Assembly: GCA_945883775.1 (NCBI GenBank)
Contig: CAMCYG010000007.1
Location: forward strand, 1 to 39,579
Reading direction: 5' to 3'
DNA: 39,579 nt
Origin: Victivallis vadensis
Lineage (GTDB): Bacteria; Verrucomicrobiota; Kiritimatiellia; UBA8416; CAMCYG01
The notes beneath the pieces are model-generated. The model was not told where the DNA came from, searched no databases, and worked only from the letters and a program-made list of their open reading frames with translations. Positions 4,318-23,312 of this stretch are shown in pieces; position 1 is the stretch's first letter; each line of letters begins with the position of its first letter. The position numbers were made by a program, and so were the translations under genes.

Positions 4318-4398
4318 AACCAAATGAAGACGGCTCGGCCAGAGGCCTCGCCCTACCTCAATTCCTGAAAGGTAGGGCGAACCCTCAGGGTGAGCCGC
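4318..4398. repeat. 81-bp dispersed repeat, copy A
   Basis: aaccaaatgaagacggct...ggtagggcgaaccctcagggtgagccgc; near-identical reverse complement at 21252-21332. Confidence 0.85.
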
Positions 4399-4399
4399 A

Positions 4400-5143
4400 T
4401 CAATGCGGATGTGAATGCCGGAGAATGTGCGGTCTCTCAAGTCCATGCTCGAGCATCAGAACCTCGTCATCCAGAACATCCAGAGTGGATCCATCTGCCA
4501 CGACCTTCCCTCCATCCATTACGATAACACGTGAGCACACCTCAACAACCAGCTCGAGATCATGCGTGGCAATTATTCTTGTGTGCTCAAATGATTTGAG
4601 AAGATTAATCAGCCGCCTACGAGCGCGGGGATCCAGATTGGAAGAAGGCTCATCCATCACAAGAATATCCGGCTCAAGCGACAGCACTGTGGCTATTGCC
4701 ACCGCACGCTTCTCTCCCGCCGAAAGACGGTACGGTGGCCTTTCAGACACGTGTGCCATACCAACGCGCGCAAGAGATGACGCAACCCTGAGCTCGACCT
4801 CAGCCTGCGGCAAGCCTGCATTAAGCGGACCGAACGCCACATCCTCCGCAACCGTTGGCATAAAAAGCTGGTCATCAGGATCCTGAAAGACAATCCCGAC
4901 CGAACGCCTGATTGCTGCGGCAGTTTCAGCTGACAGTGGAACGTCCCCAACGCGCACCTCTCCGTGTGACGCAGACAGATAACCATTCAAATGCGTAAGA
5001 AGCGTGGATTTACCGGCGCCATTACATCCAATTATGCCGACGGACTCCCCATGAGTGATACGAAATGATATACCCTTGATGGCCTCTGTGCCATCTGGAT
5101 ATATGAATCCAAGATCGCGCACTTCCACAATATGATGACTCAT
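4400..5143 (-). CDS. nikO: ECF-type nickel/cobalt transporter ATPase (NikO/CbiO)
   Basis: Walker A GCNGAGKST, signature LSAGEKRAVAIA, Walker B ILVMDEPSSNLDP; next to T and S components. Confidence 0.92.
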   Translation of the reverse strand: MSHHIVEVRDLGFIYPDGTEAIKGISFRITHGESVGIIGCNGAGKSTLLTHLNGYLSASHGEVRVGDVPLSAETAAAIRRSVGIVFQDPDDQLFMPTVAEDVAFGPLNAGLPQAEVELRVASSLARVGMAHVSERPPYRLSAGEKRAVAIATVLSLEPDILVMDEPSSNLDPRARRRLINLLKSFEHTRIIATHDLELVVEVCSRVIVMDGGKVVADGSTLDVLDDEVLMLEHGLERPHILRHSHPH

Positions 5144-5203
5144 AAAATTTCCTTCGTAAATTTTATTACATGAATATGTCACGCAAAGCGTGCCATATTC
5201 ATA

Positions 5204-6028
5204 CTAACTACCCGGTAAAACCAGGAGGGTGTATTTTGAACAAAGCTCACCAAGCAATTCAGAAAGATTCCAATAACGGGCGACGGCAAAGAACAAGATC
5301 CATCCGAATAAAAACGCCAGATCCTGAAACCGCATGCTAGTTGGCCTCAGAATCCTGACTTGTCCGTCAAATCCCCGCGAAACCATTGCCTGGTATACAC
5401 GCTGGGCCCGATCCATTGCCCTGACAAGAAGATGACCTATAAGCGACACATATGTTCTTATTCTCATTGCGCGCTTACCAACTGACCTCAGCTCGACACT
5501 ATGCATCATCCTAAGCCCCTCATCAGCTATCACGAACAGGTAGCGATAAAGAAGCTGCAACTGCACTGAAAAAACCTTAGGCAGACCCAGTCGCTCCATG
5601 CCGGCGCACAACCTGTTGATTCCTGTACAAGCAACAAGCAGTAACGCCACGCTCACGGTGAGAGCAAAGCGAATGACAATAGAGACAAAAGACAGCCAGC
5701 CGCCTGATATGCCAATATCCCCGATATATAGCACAACCTGCCGATCCAGAAAGGGATTGAACAGCCCAACAGCCAGCGCAAAAGGCGAGGCAATCAGCAG
5801 TTTGCGCAGAAGATAACCTAGCGGCATCCCACCTGCCGCCAGCAGAACAACAGGATAAAGAAAGAACGGGATTAGTGCTGATATTTCGTACCTGGAAAAT
5901 GACATGACAGCTATAATAAAAGCTAGAGTCGTAACCGCCTTAACCCGCGCATCAAGACGATGGACTGGAGTATTCAACCGCCCCAGATCATCCATCCGCC
6001 CCACTTCAATGTATTTGTCAAAACTCAT
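5204..6028 (-). CDS. nikQ: ECF-type nickel/cobalt transporter transmembrane T component (NikQ/CbiQ)
   Basis: CbiQ-like protein with SRGFDGQVR coupling motif; operon context. Confidence 0.88.
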   Translation of the reverse strand: MSFDKYIEVGRMDDLGRLNTPVHRLDARVKAVTTLAFIIAVMSFSRYEISALIPFFLYPVVLLAAGGMPLGYLLRKLLIASPFALAVGLFNPFLDRQVVLYIGDIGISGGWLSFVSIVIRFALTVSVALLLVACTGINRLCAGMERLGLPKVFSVQLQLLYRYLFVIADEGLRMMHSVELRSVGKRAMRIRTYVSLIGHLLVRAMDRAQRVYQAMVSRGFDGQVRILRPTSMRFQDLAFLFGWILFFAVARYWNLSELLGELCSKYTLLVLPGS

Positions 6029-6111
6029 AAACTTCAGACTACTGCTCCAAATGCGGCACGAATATCTTTTTTATACTGCGTAGTTAGTTTGGCGAAGCAA
6101 CAACCTGCGTT

Positions 6112-6540
6112 TTATTTACTGAAATCCTTACCCGTAGAAGTCACCGTCAGCTTGCCGTGTTTCACTCCCTTGGCGGAGACTATCTGATCTGCCATCGCCT
6201 GCACCTGCCCCGACTTGCCCCTGACTGCCAGTACTTCCATACAGTTATGGTGGTCGAGATGCACATGCATGGACGAAATAATCAAATCTCCGTGATCATG
6301 TTGGATGTCGGTGAGAAGAGCCTGAATCAAAGGCCTATGGTGATCGTATACCAGCGTTATCGTGCCAGCTATTTCCTGGTCTACTTTCTCCGCGTTATGA
6401 CTCACCAGCCGATCACGCACCAATTCAGAAACCGCCTGCGACCTGTTTGCATAACCCTTTTCCCTAACCATACGATCAAGCTGAACGACAAGGTCATTCG
6501 CCATAGACATACTGAACCTGCTCAATAATTGCTTTTGCAT
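6112..6540 (-). CDS. nikR: Nickel-responsive transcriptional regulator NikR
   Basis: RHH N-terminus (LSRFSMSMANDLVVQLDRMV) and Ni site H-x13-HxH-x5-C (HDHGDLIISSMHVHLDHHNC). Confidence 0.95.
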   Translation of the reverse strand: MQKQLLSRFSMSMANDLVVQLDRMVREKGYANRSQAVSELVRDRLVSHNAEKVDQEIAGTITLVYDHHRPLIQALLTDIQHDHGDLIISSMHVHLDHHNCMEVLAVRGKSGQVQAMADQIVSAKGVKHGKLTVTSTGKDFSK

Positions 6541-6541
6541 A

Positions 6542-6569
6542 GTATTACCTTTCTTGCAATCTGTAATAC
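6542..6569. promoter_or_regulatory. Candidate NikR operator upstream of nikR
   Basis: Perfect inverted repeat GTATTAC-N14-GTAATAC directly upstream of the nikR start. Confidence 0.75.
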
Positions 6570-6601
6570 CTTATTTACAGGAGCAGTCAATATACAAATG
6601 G

Positions 6602-7639
6602 TCAGACACCAGAACACCGTCTGAGTCCATACCCGATCAAGCCCGCCAGCACCATTGTAGCTAAACCGCCCACGAGTCCAGCGATGGAAGTGCCCGCATT
6701 GACAGCAGGCCATTTGGCTTGCTGTTGAACACCTGTCGTTTCTACAGCTTCGACCATGGACGATTCCGCAGATTTGAAGTCGTAGTCAGGCATAACAGCA
6801 GTCTTTTCCTGTATTGTCGAAAGATGCTTGTAGATACCAACATTGGGTTTTTCCAGCTCCTCTTTACCGCTAACCTTTCCCATGGCCCATTCTAAACCAT
6901 CGGGATGTGAAGATGCAAACCAGCTCAGGCCACCGCCCACAAAGGCCGCTATAATCAACAGCCTAATTACCACGCGACCCAAGCCAATAGATCCGCCATC
7001 ACCGGAAGCAGGCCATGGAATCGAGGCAGGCCGAGCCTTAGAAACAAAGGCAATCACAGCTGAAGTCACCAATCCTTCAACAATACCAATTGCCAGGTGT
7101 ATCGGCTGCATCATTAATACAAAAGTTTTAAATGGCAGATCGGATATGCCTGACATTGTTGTTTCCATTACAACGCCAAAAGCACCCATCTGCAGGCCTA
7201 GTATAGCCGCAAGCATAGCCCCGCGCCAGCCAACCCTGGCACCTCCCGCAAGCGGCTTATATATCAAAGGATATGCGATGAATGCCGGAAAAAACCCGAG
7301 GTTGAAGATATTGCACCCCAGCGCCAGTAGACCGCCGTCAGCGAAGAAGAAAGCCTGTACGGTCAAAACCGAAGCAATTACCAGGAACGATGCATATGGA
7401 CCCAAAAGAATCGCGAGAATCAGGCCTCCGCCCAAATGCCCGCTCGAGCCAGTAGCCGGAATCGCGAAGTTTATCATCTGTGCCGCAAAGATGAATGCAC
7501 CCAGAACGCCCATCAACGGGATCATTTTATCATCCAGAGTCTGCCGCACCTTGCGGGCACAGAACGCAAGCAAACCCGCGCTAGCCGCCCACATCGTCCC
7601 GCCCACCGCCGGTGAAATCAAAGCATCTGCCATGTGCAT
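6602..7639 (-). CDS. nikM: Nickel/cobalt ECF transporter S component NikM/CbiM with C-terminal PDGL-type domain
   Basis: N-terminus MHMADALISPAVGG, CbiM-like core, C-terminal SSHPDGLEWAMGKV; RBS aGGAG. Confidence 0.92.
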   Translation of the reverse strand: MHMADALISPAVGGTMWAASAGLLAFCARKVRQTLDDKMIPLMGVLGAFIFAAQMINFAIPATGSSGHLGGGLILAILLGPYASFLVIASVLTVQAFFFADGGLLALGCNIFNLGFFPAFIAYPLIYKPLAGGARVGWRGAMLAAILGLQMGAFGVVMETTMSGISDLPFKTFVLMMQPIHLAIGIVEGLVTSAVIAFVSKARPASIPWPASGDGGSIGLGRVVIRLLIIAAFVGGGLSWFASSHPDGLEWAMGKVSGKEELEKPNVGIYKHLSTIQEKTAVMPDYDFKSAESSMVEAVETTGVQQQAKWPAVNAGTSIAGLVGGLATMVLAGLIGYGLRRCSGV

Positions 7640-7643
7640 AATA

Positions 7644-7781
7644 TTACTCCTGCTTCTCGCCCGCTTCGAATTCAAACTGGCCCGGCTCAACCGGATCAGC
7701 GTCATCAATTGTCAAAGGCCGACCAGCAAACGCTAAGGCTGAGATGAACACACCCACAAATATTACACAAGCATACCTCAT
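7644..7781 (-). pseudogene. 45-aa signal-peptide-bearing remnant, N-terminus of an outer-membrane transporter-like protein
   Basis: MRYACVIFVGVFISALAFAGRPLTIDDADPVEPGQFEFEAGEKQE then stop; the RPLTIDDADPVEPGQFEFEAG opening resembles larger beta-barrel proteins. Confidence 0.5.
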
Positions 7782-7913: not shown

Positions 7914-7990
7914 CGGGGTGTAGTTCAGACTGGTAGAACGCTTGGTTTGGGACCAAGAGGCCGTGGGTTCAAATCCCACCGCCCCGACCA
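7914..7990 (+). tRNA. tRNA-Pro (anticodon TGG), CCA encoded
   Basis: Acceptor CGGGGTG/CGCCCCG, anticodon arm CTTGG-TTTGGGA-CCAAG, T arm GTGGGTTCAAATCCCAC, 3' ACCA. Confidence 0.97.
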
Positions 7991-12914: not shown

Positions 12915-13970
12915 TTACCGCAATGCCAGACTGAAAGTCTTCAGCACCGAAATCAGCTTGTTCACTTCTGCATCCGTGCCCACTGTAATCCTCAAAAAGT
13001 CTCCGGTTCTTCTGCCGGGAAAATATCGCACCAGTATCTTCTCCTCGCGCAATTTTCCAAAAACCTCAGCCGCTTTCATTCCTACCGGTTTTACAAACAG
13101 GAAATTCGACTGCGAGTCACAGACTGTATAGCTCAGTTTCTCCAGCGCTGTCGCCAAACGCCGTCTACTCGCAATAATCCTGGCACAGTTCTTTTTCATC
13201 ACAGAAACATCGTTGACTGCCGCGAGCGCCAGTGTCTGCGCCAGAAAGTCCACATTATAAGAATCCTTGATGGTAAAGAGCGCCGCAATCAAAGCCTTGT
13301 GTCCGATCACATAACCCACCCTCAGGCCTGCCAGCGAGAAGGATTTTGACAGCGTGCGCATCACCAGTACATTTTTGCGAGTACGCGCAAGTGCCATGCA
13401 GTTATCTGAAGCGAAATCCGCATACGCTTCATCGATCATGACCACCCCCTTGAATCCCGCACAGAACGACGAAACTGTTTTCAACGGATAGTTCATGCCC
13501 GTCGGAGCGTTAGGTCGCGCCATGAGGAAAAGTGAGGCATTGTATTTCGCAGGCATTGCCCACTCAAATCCTGCGGCCAATTCGACAGGCTTTTTAGCCA
13601 CGTCCCGTATATCAGCCAAAATAGGATAAAGCGAATACGAAGGATTGAAATAACCTATGGAACCATTGTCCTCAACAAAGGCACGCGTACACAACGCCAA
13701 TATCTCGTCAGACCCGTTGCCCACAAAAACCATATCCTCAGAACACTTATTAAGCCTGGCTATGGCCTTGCGCAGTGCAGAACTGACAGGGTCAGGATAC
13801 AACCTCAGCCGGACAGGATCTATGGCGCGCAGGGCTTTGATGACGCCCGGTGAAGGCGGATAAGGATTCTCATTTGTATTAAGCTTAATGAGGCCTGATA
13901 CCTTCGGCTGTTCGCCTGGAGTATAGCCCGTCATACATCTTACATTCTCTTTTATTAAGCTATTGCTCAT
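12915..13970 (-). CDS. hisC: Histidinol-phosphate aminotransferase HisC
   Basis: LNTNENPYPPSP, FVGNGSDEIL, MIDEAYADF, TLSKSFSLAGLRVGY. Confidence 0.96.
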   Translation of the reverse strand: MSNSLIKENVRCMTGYTPGEQPKVSGLIKLNTNENPYPPSPGVIKALRAIDPVRLRLYPDPVSSALRKAIARLNKCSEDMVFVGNGSDEILALCTRAFVEDNGSIGYFNPSYSLYPILADIRDVAKKPVELAAGFEWAMPAKYNASLFLMARPNAPTGMNYPLKTVSSFCAGFKGVVMIDEAYADFASDNCMALARTRKNVLVMRTLSKSFSLAGLRVGYVIGHKALIAALFTIKDSYNVDFLAQTLALAAVNDVSVMKKNCARIIASRRRLATALEKLSYTVCDSQSNFLFVKPVGMKAAEVFGKLREEKILVRYFPGRRTGDFLRITVGTDAEVNKLISVLKTFSLALR

Positions 13971-14041: not shown

Positions 14042-14105
14042 GTAGGAGTCGATCCCCTGATCGACGATCTGTTTTAGCATCGCAGCAACGGGGTGCTGCT
14101 CCTAC
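14042..14105. repeat. REP-doublet (BIME-like) element 1
   Basis: Two convergent 27-nt GTAGGAG...CGAT hairpins separated by 10 nt. Confidence 0.82.
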
Positions 14106-14154: not shown

Positions 14155-15450
14155 TCACTTCCTGAATCTTATCTTGGCAGATTCAGCGTGCGCATCCAGC
14201 CCTTCGACCCTGCCGAACACCTCTATTACCGGCAAAGCTTTCTTAAGATCTTCCTTTGAGAACATGATCACACTGCTCCTGCGCATAAAGTCATCGACAG
14301 TCAAACCCGAGAACATCGTTGCCGCCCCGCCTGTTGGCAGCACATGACTGGGTCCGGCGACAAAATCTCCGGCAGGCTCCGGCGTCCACTGTCCCAGAAA
14401 TATCGCGCCAGCGCATTTTATCAGCGGCAGAACTTTCAGCGGACTCTTTGTAATTATCTCCAGGTGCTCAGGCGCGAATTTATTACATAGCGCAGCAGCT
14501 TCGGCAATGTTCTTAACCAGAACCACAAGCATCCCTTTGGCCATCACCTTCTTAATAGCCTCATATCTGCTTCTTTGCTTTGCCAAACTCTCTACTGCCG
14601 CTATCGCCAATCGGGCAGTTCTCGACGAATCAGTTACCAGAAGCGCTTTCTCCCAACCGGTCCCGTGCTCGGCCTGCGACAGAAGATCGGCCGCAATAAA
14701 ATCAGGATCTGCGCTGGAATCGGCCAGCACCGCTATCTCGCTGGGGCCGGCCACCAGATCGAGGGCGACATCGCCATACACAAGCCGCTTGGCAGCAGTC
14801 ACAAAAGTTCCGCCAGGCCCGACAATCTTCTGCACCTTCCTAACCTTTCCGGCGCCATAAGCCATGAGGCCTATTGCCTGAACCCCGCCGACCTTGTAGA
14901 TTTCCGTTGCGCCAGAGGCTTTCAAAGCATACAGCAAATATGGGTTTACTGTACCGTCTTTGCGACACGGCGTGCAGGCAACGATTTCTTTGACACCAGC
15001 GACAACGGCTATGGGAACGGTCATAAGGACAGTCGACGCCAACGGGGCAGCTCCCCCTGGAATATAGACACCCACCCTGTCCAGCGCAGTAAATCGCTCA
15101 CCGACAAGGCCTCTGCCCTTCTTCTTAAGGCTCCAATTCTTCTTTTTACCGGCCAGCGCAAAATCCGAGACCCGTTTTTTTGTTTCAGCAACTGCTTTTC
15201 GGAAAGCAACGTCAACAGCTAAATCCGCTTTGGCTATCTCCGCTTCCGTAACACGAACCGAACCGGACGGCAAATCAGAACCATCAAACGCTTTTGCATA
15301 CTTCAGAACTGCGGAAAGGCCTTTCTTGCGGATATCGGCCAGAATCTTCCCGGCCACCGCCTCGGCCTTGTCGCTGAATGCCGGACGCAGAAAGAACTTC
15401 TCCGCGCTCTTTATTCCGCTGCCTTTGTATGCGATTACCGTCAAACTCAT
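14155..15450 (-). CDS. hisD: Histidinol dehydrogenase HisD
   Basis: YIPGGAAPLASTVLMTVPIAVVAGV, VDLVAGPSEI-like ALDLVAGPSEIAVLAD, AEHGTGWEKALLVT, NKFAPEHLEI, GPSHVLPTGGAA. Confidence 0.97.
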   Translation of the reverse strand: MSLTVIAYKGSGIKSAEKFFLRPAFSDKAEAVAGKILADIRKKGLSAVLKYAKAFDGSDLPSGSVRVTEAEIAKADLAVDVAFRKAVAETKKRVSDFALAGKKKNWSLKKKGRGLVGERFTALDRVGVYIPGGAAPLASTVLMTVPIAVVAGVKEIVACTPCRKDGTVNPYLLYALKASGATEIYKVGGVQAIGLMAYGAGKVRKVQKIVGPGGTFVTAAKRLVYGDVALDLVAGPSEIAVLADSSADPDFIAADLLSQAEHGTGWEKALLVTDSSRTARLAIAAVESLAKQRSRYEAIKKVMAKGMLVVLVKNIAEAAALCNKFAPEHLEIITKSPLKVLPLIKCAGAIFLGQWTPEPAGDFVAGPSHVLPTGGAATMFSGLTVDDFMRRSSVIMFSKEDLKKALPVIEVFGRVEGLDAHAESAKIRFRK

Positions 15451-15655
15451 ATAAATCTCCAAAAATAGTATTCAGAATTCAGGATCCAGAATTCAGCATG
15501 AAATCCTGCAGCTCCACTGGACGTCAACAGCAATGTAAATATTTAAACCCCTGTTGGCAATTCTTTAATGGCAATTTTGCAGGTTGATTCCGAGCATAGG
15601 CTGTACTATATTTACCGCCCGTTACAGACAAGCCAGCAGAAAGGAATATTACAAC

Positions 15656-21251: not shown

Positions 21252-21332
21252 GCGGCTCACCCTGAGGGTTCGCCCTACCTTTCCGGATTGAGGGCAGGGA
21301 GAGGCCTCCGGCCAAGCCGTCTTCATTTGGTT
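21252..21332. repeat. 81-bp dispersed repeat, copy B (inverted relative to copy A)
   Basis: Reverse complement closely matches 4318-4398 over the same 81-nt length. Confidence 0.85.
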
Positions 21333-23250: not shown

Positions 23251-23312
23251 GTAGGAGCCGCAACCCTTTGCGGCGATCGAAAAGAATCGTCGATCAGGGG
23301 ATCGACTCCTAC
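23251..23312. repeat. REP-doublet (BIME-like) element 2
   Basis: Two convergent 27-nt GTAGGAG...CGAT hairpins with an 8-nt spacer; one half identical to a half of element 1. Confidence 0.82.

Follow-up and report, generated by a model that had tools for sequence, protein, structure and literature searches.

Short GTAG-type REP doublets in a Victivallis vadensis genome and related RAYTs beside the same REP foot in other genomes

The 184-bp gap between a hisC-like gene (12915-13970) and a hisD-like gene (14155-15462) on the same strand contains a small palindromic doublet at 14042-14105 of the window, by which we mean the whole 39,579-nt stretch of Victivallis vadensis contig CAMCYG010000007.1 that was analyzed. 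The locus raises the question of what kind of element this is and which enzyme could have placed it there. The names of the two genes were assigned by inspection of the open reading frames and follow the initial annotation. That annotation described two convergent 27-nt units with a 10-nt spacer, which on re-inspection was exact to the base. The six-base stem it gave is likewise present in the sequence, yet pairing at 14042-14068 is longer, reaching 7 bp when the flanking G...C pair is included, and the unit reads GTAG, unpaired GA, stem and GAT. In the partner unit a 6-bp stem encloses a 6-nt loop. DNA folding returned these hairpins with z-scores of -3.3 and -2.3 for the two units and -3.4 for the whole doublet. 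A second doublet at 23251-23312 has a minus-strand unit with the same TCGATC stem as the unit at 14042-14068 (Table 1). These units, here termed class A, are palindromes within the 20-40 nt range with an unpaired GTAG at one end, as REPs of the GTAG super-family are defined. No Rfam family matched the class-A element, and no T run adjoins either class-A doublet of the window.

Table 1. Positions of REP units of both classes within the window
Feature	Position	Strand	Details and evidence
Second REP class, doublet arm	4332..4358	-	pattern GTAGGGCGA-stem-GAGCC
Second REP class, other doublet arm	4370..4396	+	pattern GTAGGGCGA-stem-GAGCC
Class-A REP unit GTAGGAGTCGATCCCCTGATCGACGAT	14042..14068	+	stem GTCGATC/GATCGAC, loop CCCT; sequence, genome pattern search, DNA folding
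10-nt spacer in convergent doublet, GTAG ends outside	14069..14078	.	sequence, spacer survey
Class-A REP unit GTAGGAGCAGCACCCCGTTGCTGCGAT	14079..14105	-	stem GCAGCA/TGCTGC, loop CCCCGT; sequence, genome pattern search, DNA folding
Second REP class, intact unit	21254..21280	-	decayed partner at about 21290-21319
Class-A REP unit GTAGGAGCCGCAACCCTTTGCGGCGAT	23251..23277	+	stem GCCGCAA/TTGCGGC, loop CCCT; sequence, genome pattern search
Class-A REP unit, 8 nt from the unit at 23251..23277	23286..23312	-	stem GTCGATC/GATCGAC, loop CCCT

Class-A units are abundant in the genome that carries the window (G000; 2.66 Mb in 182 contigs, 89% complete). The pattern GTAGGAGN{12,20}CGAT gave 86 matches (41 + 45) as compared with 5 (2 + 3) for the reversed pattern, and when CCC was required in the loop 81 copies (40 + 41) were retained, with none in the reversed control. 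These 81 units group into about 51 elements, and only 10 of them lie in ORFs of at least 150 aa, whereas 75% of positions drawn at random from the same loci do. Both convergent and divergent inverted pairs are found, with 8 nt the commonest spacer in each, an arrangement of two REPs inverted at short distance that is characteristic of BIMEs and REPINs. The base preceding GTAG is T in 72 of the 81 units and is preceded by C (CT) in 40, which is in line with the CT cleavage of known RAYTs (PMC8266576). Flanking genes ran in the same direction at 20 elements, converged at 9 and diverged at 5, which did not differ from the other gaps of this genome (47, 17 and 15).

Fixed flanks with compensatory stem changes had been proposed from the units of the window alone, and this pattern was borne out across the 20 distinct 27-nt units of the genome. 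Two-sided changes were seen at six of the seven stem pairs; 92.1% of stem cells were paired versus 68.8% after shuffling, and the covariation score was 0.551 versus 0.152, with neither value reached in any of 500 shuffles. All slid-alignment controls collapsed, and an arm-swap test agreed (pairing of 0.92 versus 0.69, the best of 2000 swaps giving 0.82). GA after GTAG and GAT after the stem, both features of the GTAG-1 type, occur in all distinct units, an invariance that is partly by construction as these letters were set by the search pattern and variants outside it went uncounted; the stem was left unconstrained. Together with the 81 mostly intergenic copies, the covariation provides the genome-wide support that the initial annotation had looked for besides a RAYT.

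This layout is that of the GTAG-1 family (Di Nocera 2013, PMC3733652), in which GTAG is followed by an unpaired dinucleotide, a short stem and a conserved 3-nt motif, with dimers arranged head-to-head or tail-to-tail. Class A differs from it in residing in a Verrucomicrobia-type genome, in its C-rich loop (CCCT/CCCG) and in its many stem types. GTAG repeats were noted in Opitutus terrae (Verrucomicrobia) in the same publication and named GTAG-20. Short REPs in which 1-2 nt separate GTAG from the stem are tied to subclass 2.5, which nearly coincides with RAYT group 3 (PMC6006769), and class A resembles the REPtrons of that group in its short perfect palindrome, in the distance of GTAG from the stem and in having a REP-flanked RAYT (PMC6006769, PMC8266576). 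However, subclass 2.5 was described as largely confined to Xanthomonads and Pseudomonads, and the RAYT partner of class A is found in a relative rather than in the assembly of the window. Cutting by a group 3 enzyme requires GTAG and a loop base, while many paired stem changes have a mild effect and a stem mismatch is harmful; cleavage by these enzymes occurs at CT or CA (PMC8266576). Such tolerance would account for the foot and loop having been kept while the stems covary.

Among 347 genomes of the same taxonomic class, raised class-A counts were found in G000 (81), G031 (69), G080 (28), G112 (21), G077 (12), G113 (10) and G078 (6), the remainder giving 0 to 3 matches that were mostly non-palindromic. 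The six genomes with multi-copy sets besides our own fall in several families, and their stems mostly differ from one genome to another. Within G031 (loci L104-L129) the class-A doublets form part of a longer repeat, roughly 140 bp in length, whose outer ends GCCAAAAGCGGCAACTGTATTTGAT and TGCCGCAAAAGAGCGCAAAATCG are conserved. The arrangement looks as though the REPs had been taken up by a larger miniature element.

A RAYT bracketed by class-A units was identified in G077, Verrucomicrobia bacterium DP16D_bin.41, where contig SCQF01000006.1 encodes a 152-aa protein between two convergent GTAGGAG doublets; being flanked by the same REP class on both sides, it constitutes a REPtron. The identity of this contig also puts the taxonomic class of the window within Verrucomicrobia as NCBI uses the name. 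Its score of 76.5 bits falls below the NCBIfam cut-off of 80. The top match of its predicted fold is the E. coli RAYT-REP structure 4er8, which was also recovered from the PDB at 2.9e-15 with a profile, whereas the single G077 protein sequence gave no PDB match. The HxH and YxxxNP motifs are invariant. In class-A RAYTs of Verrucomicrobiota, including the one at L183 1453-1908, the HUH motif reads HWH, and W is not among the middle residues given in PMC6006769. With HUH and YxxxNP motifs, a RAYT fold and short GTAG-1-type flanking REPs, the G077 protein is assigned to RAYT group 3, an assignment that rests on the flanking REP type.

Relatives of the G077 RAYT were collected from named genomes of Verrucomicrobiota and Proteobacteria, among them Thauera, Limnohabitans, Methylomonas and Andreprevotia. 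GTRGGAG hairpins flank 19 of these 26 genes (14 on both sides, 5 on one side), a count whose sample was not unbiased, as the relatives were picked by similarity. Shuffled flanks yielded 0.002 units and other RAYT loci 1 of 44. Mapped onto the RAYT tree, GTRGGAG flanks needed 3 changes of label versus 16.4 in shuffles; judged from these sequences, REP type follows the RAYT tree. Beside the Andreprevotia relative we found GTAGGAGCGAGCTTGCTCGCGAT, which is a Pseudomonas REP as well. Relatives from two phyla are thus accompanied by one REP foot.

In the assembly of the window itself the situation differs. A single RAYT exceeds the NCBIfam cut-off, a 164-aa protein on contig 69 (L036 283-1091), located beside dnaK- and groEL-like genes and flanked by four GTAGGGC units per side, which makes it a complete REPtron of its own. 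GTAGGAG units are absent from these flanks, and the protein belongs to a separate, supported clade with GTAGGG-type REPs; as the class-A cognate it was rejected on both counts. Of the RAYTs looked for in the genome or close relatives, one exists in this genome and a class-A-flanked one in G077 of the same class, but the resident enzyme is of a different clade with a different REP. Its REPs belong to a second class, GTAGGGCGA-stem-GAGCC, with 75 matches in the genome versus 12 for the reversed pattern. In most dispersed GTAGGGC copies the stem is bulged, and they depart in detail from the units that flank the contig 69 RAYT. Two sites of this class are present in the window, 4331-4397 and 21253-21320, the former folding with a z-score of -7.9. 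The E. coli REP/BIME system with TnpA-REP (4er8) shares enzyme fold and GTAG foot with class A, although E. coli REPs are longer and bulged, nearer to the second class than to class A.

No class-A RAYT was found in the 89% complete assembly, and a profile search for a remnant at E up to 10 yielded nothing beyond the three Y1 genes already found and one match at chance level. Similarly, G031, with 69 class-A copies, has no RAYT of the class-A clade above the cut-off at 96% completeness. As no RAYT flanked by class A is present in its own assembly, the window element is filed as a REP/BIME and not as part of a REPtron. REPtrons may be missing through deletion (PMC3733652), and true loss by this lineage is possible. 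Assembly breaks also tend to fall at class-A elements, 6 of the 51 lying less than 200 nt from a contig end versus about 1.4 expected, so a bracketed RAYT could have dropped out. A cognate RAYT of this genome would have been lost, left unassembled or replaced.

We consider it very probable (roughly 0.87) that the doublet belongs to the GTAG-1 / RAYT group 3 REPs, subclass 2.5 of the 2018 classification, its two units forming a BIME- or REPIN-like non-autonomous element. The REP/RAYT architecture first suggested by the initial annotation gains support from the copies, the covariation, the bracketed RAYT of G077 and the REP foot of its relatives. A TnpA-REP enzyme (RAYT), which is a HUH-Y1 nuclease with a single domain, would recognize the hairpin in single-stranded form by foot (GTAGGA), loop and tail (GAT). 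Guided by GTAG, it would cut beside the hairpin and insert it at another single-stranded site, in most cases an intergenic one. Such an enzyme would accept base changes in the stem provided that pairing is kept, leaving stems that covary. We infer that class A has been mobile in this genome, spread by a RAYT that is missing from the present assembly. Following insertion between hisD and hisC, the doublet may have an effect on the mRNA.

Alternative sources of mobility have to be weighed against this reading. The contig 69 RAYT, whose own REPs are GTAGGGC, might have mobilized class A in trans, being the sole RAYT above the cut-off and its REPs beginning with GTAG like those of class A. With eight GTAGGGC and zero GTAGGAG units around the gene, its different clade and the reported specificity of one RAYT per REP family (PMC6006769), this is very improbable. 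Another transposase could be responsible, such as the Y1 proteins of about 350 aa with long C-terminal parts encoded on contigs 67 and 21, which are present in both copy-rich genomes that have no class-A RAYT. Class-A units are absent near these genes in G000, for which the proteins were rejected as cognates, and proteins of this type were reported without REPs (PMC6006769); the chance that they spread class A is minimal.

It could also be argued that the units are host-function hairpins acting at transcript ends, in mRNA stabilization or as gyrase sites, with covariation arising from selection on RNA or DNA structure. Conservation of stems through pairing and an intergenic position, here in a likely his operon, would agree with this. 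Patchy high-copy presence in about seven of 347 genomes and near-identical dispersed copies fit spread better than host function, while neither an Rfam match nor a T run at the two window doublets nor an unusual gene orientation was found, and we regard such an origin as scarcely credible. A host function may be an added effect and not an alternative origin. That a set of some 80 REPs has persisted with good pairing after true RAYT loss, kept by host selection or an unrelated enzyme, we consider unlikely.

As REPs of the GTAG-1 / group 3 kind, these elements add further lineages of Verrucomicrobia type to the known range of the short GTAG-1 type and its RAYT clade, which have been described mostly in Pseudomonads and Xanthomonads. 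Related RAYTs of two phyla are accompanied by one GTRGGA...GA foot, with stems and loops diverging, which amounts to a natural mutational scan of enzyme recognition. Elsewhere in the window, inspection pointed to a cobalt/nickel uptake-like cluster at 4400-7708 (ABC ATPase, permease, NikR-like regulator and CbiM-like protein), and a tRNA gene is located at 7914-7987 (Rfam RF00005, 70.6 bits).
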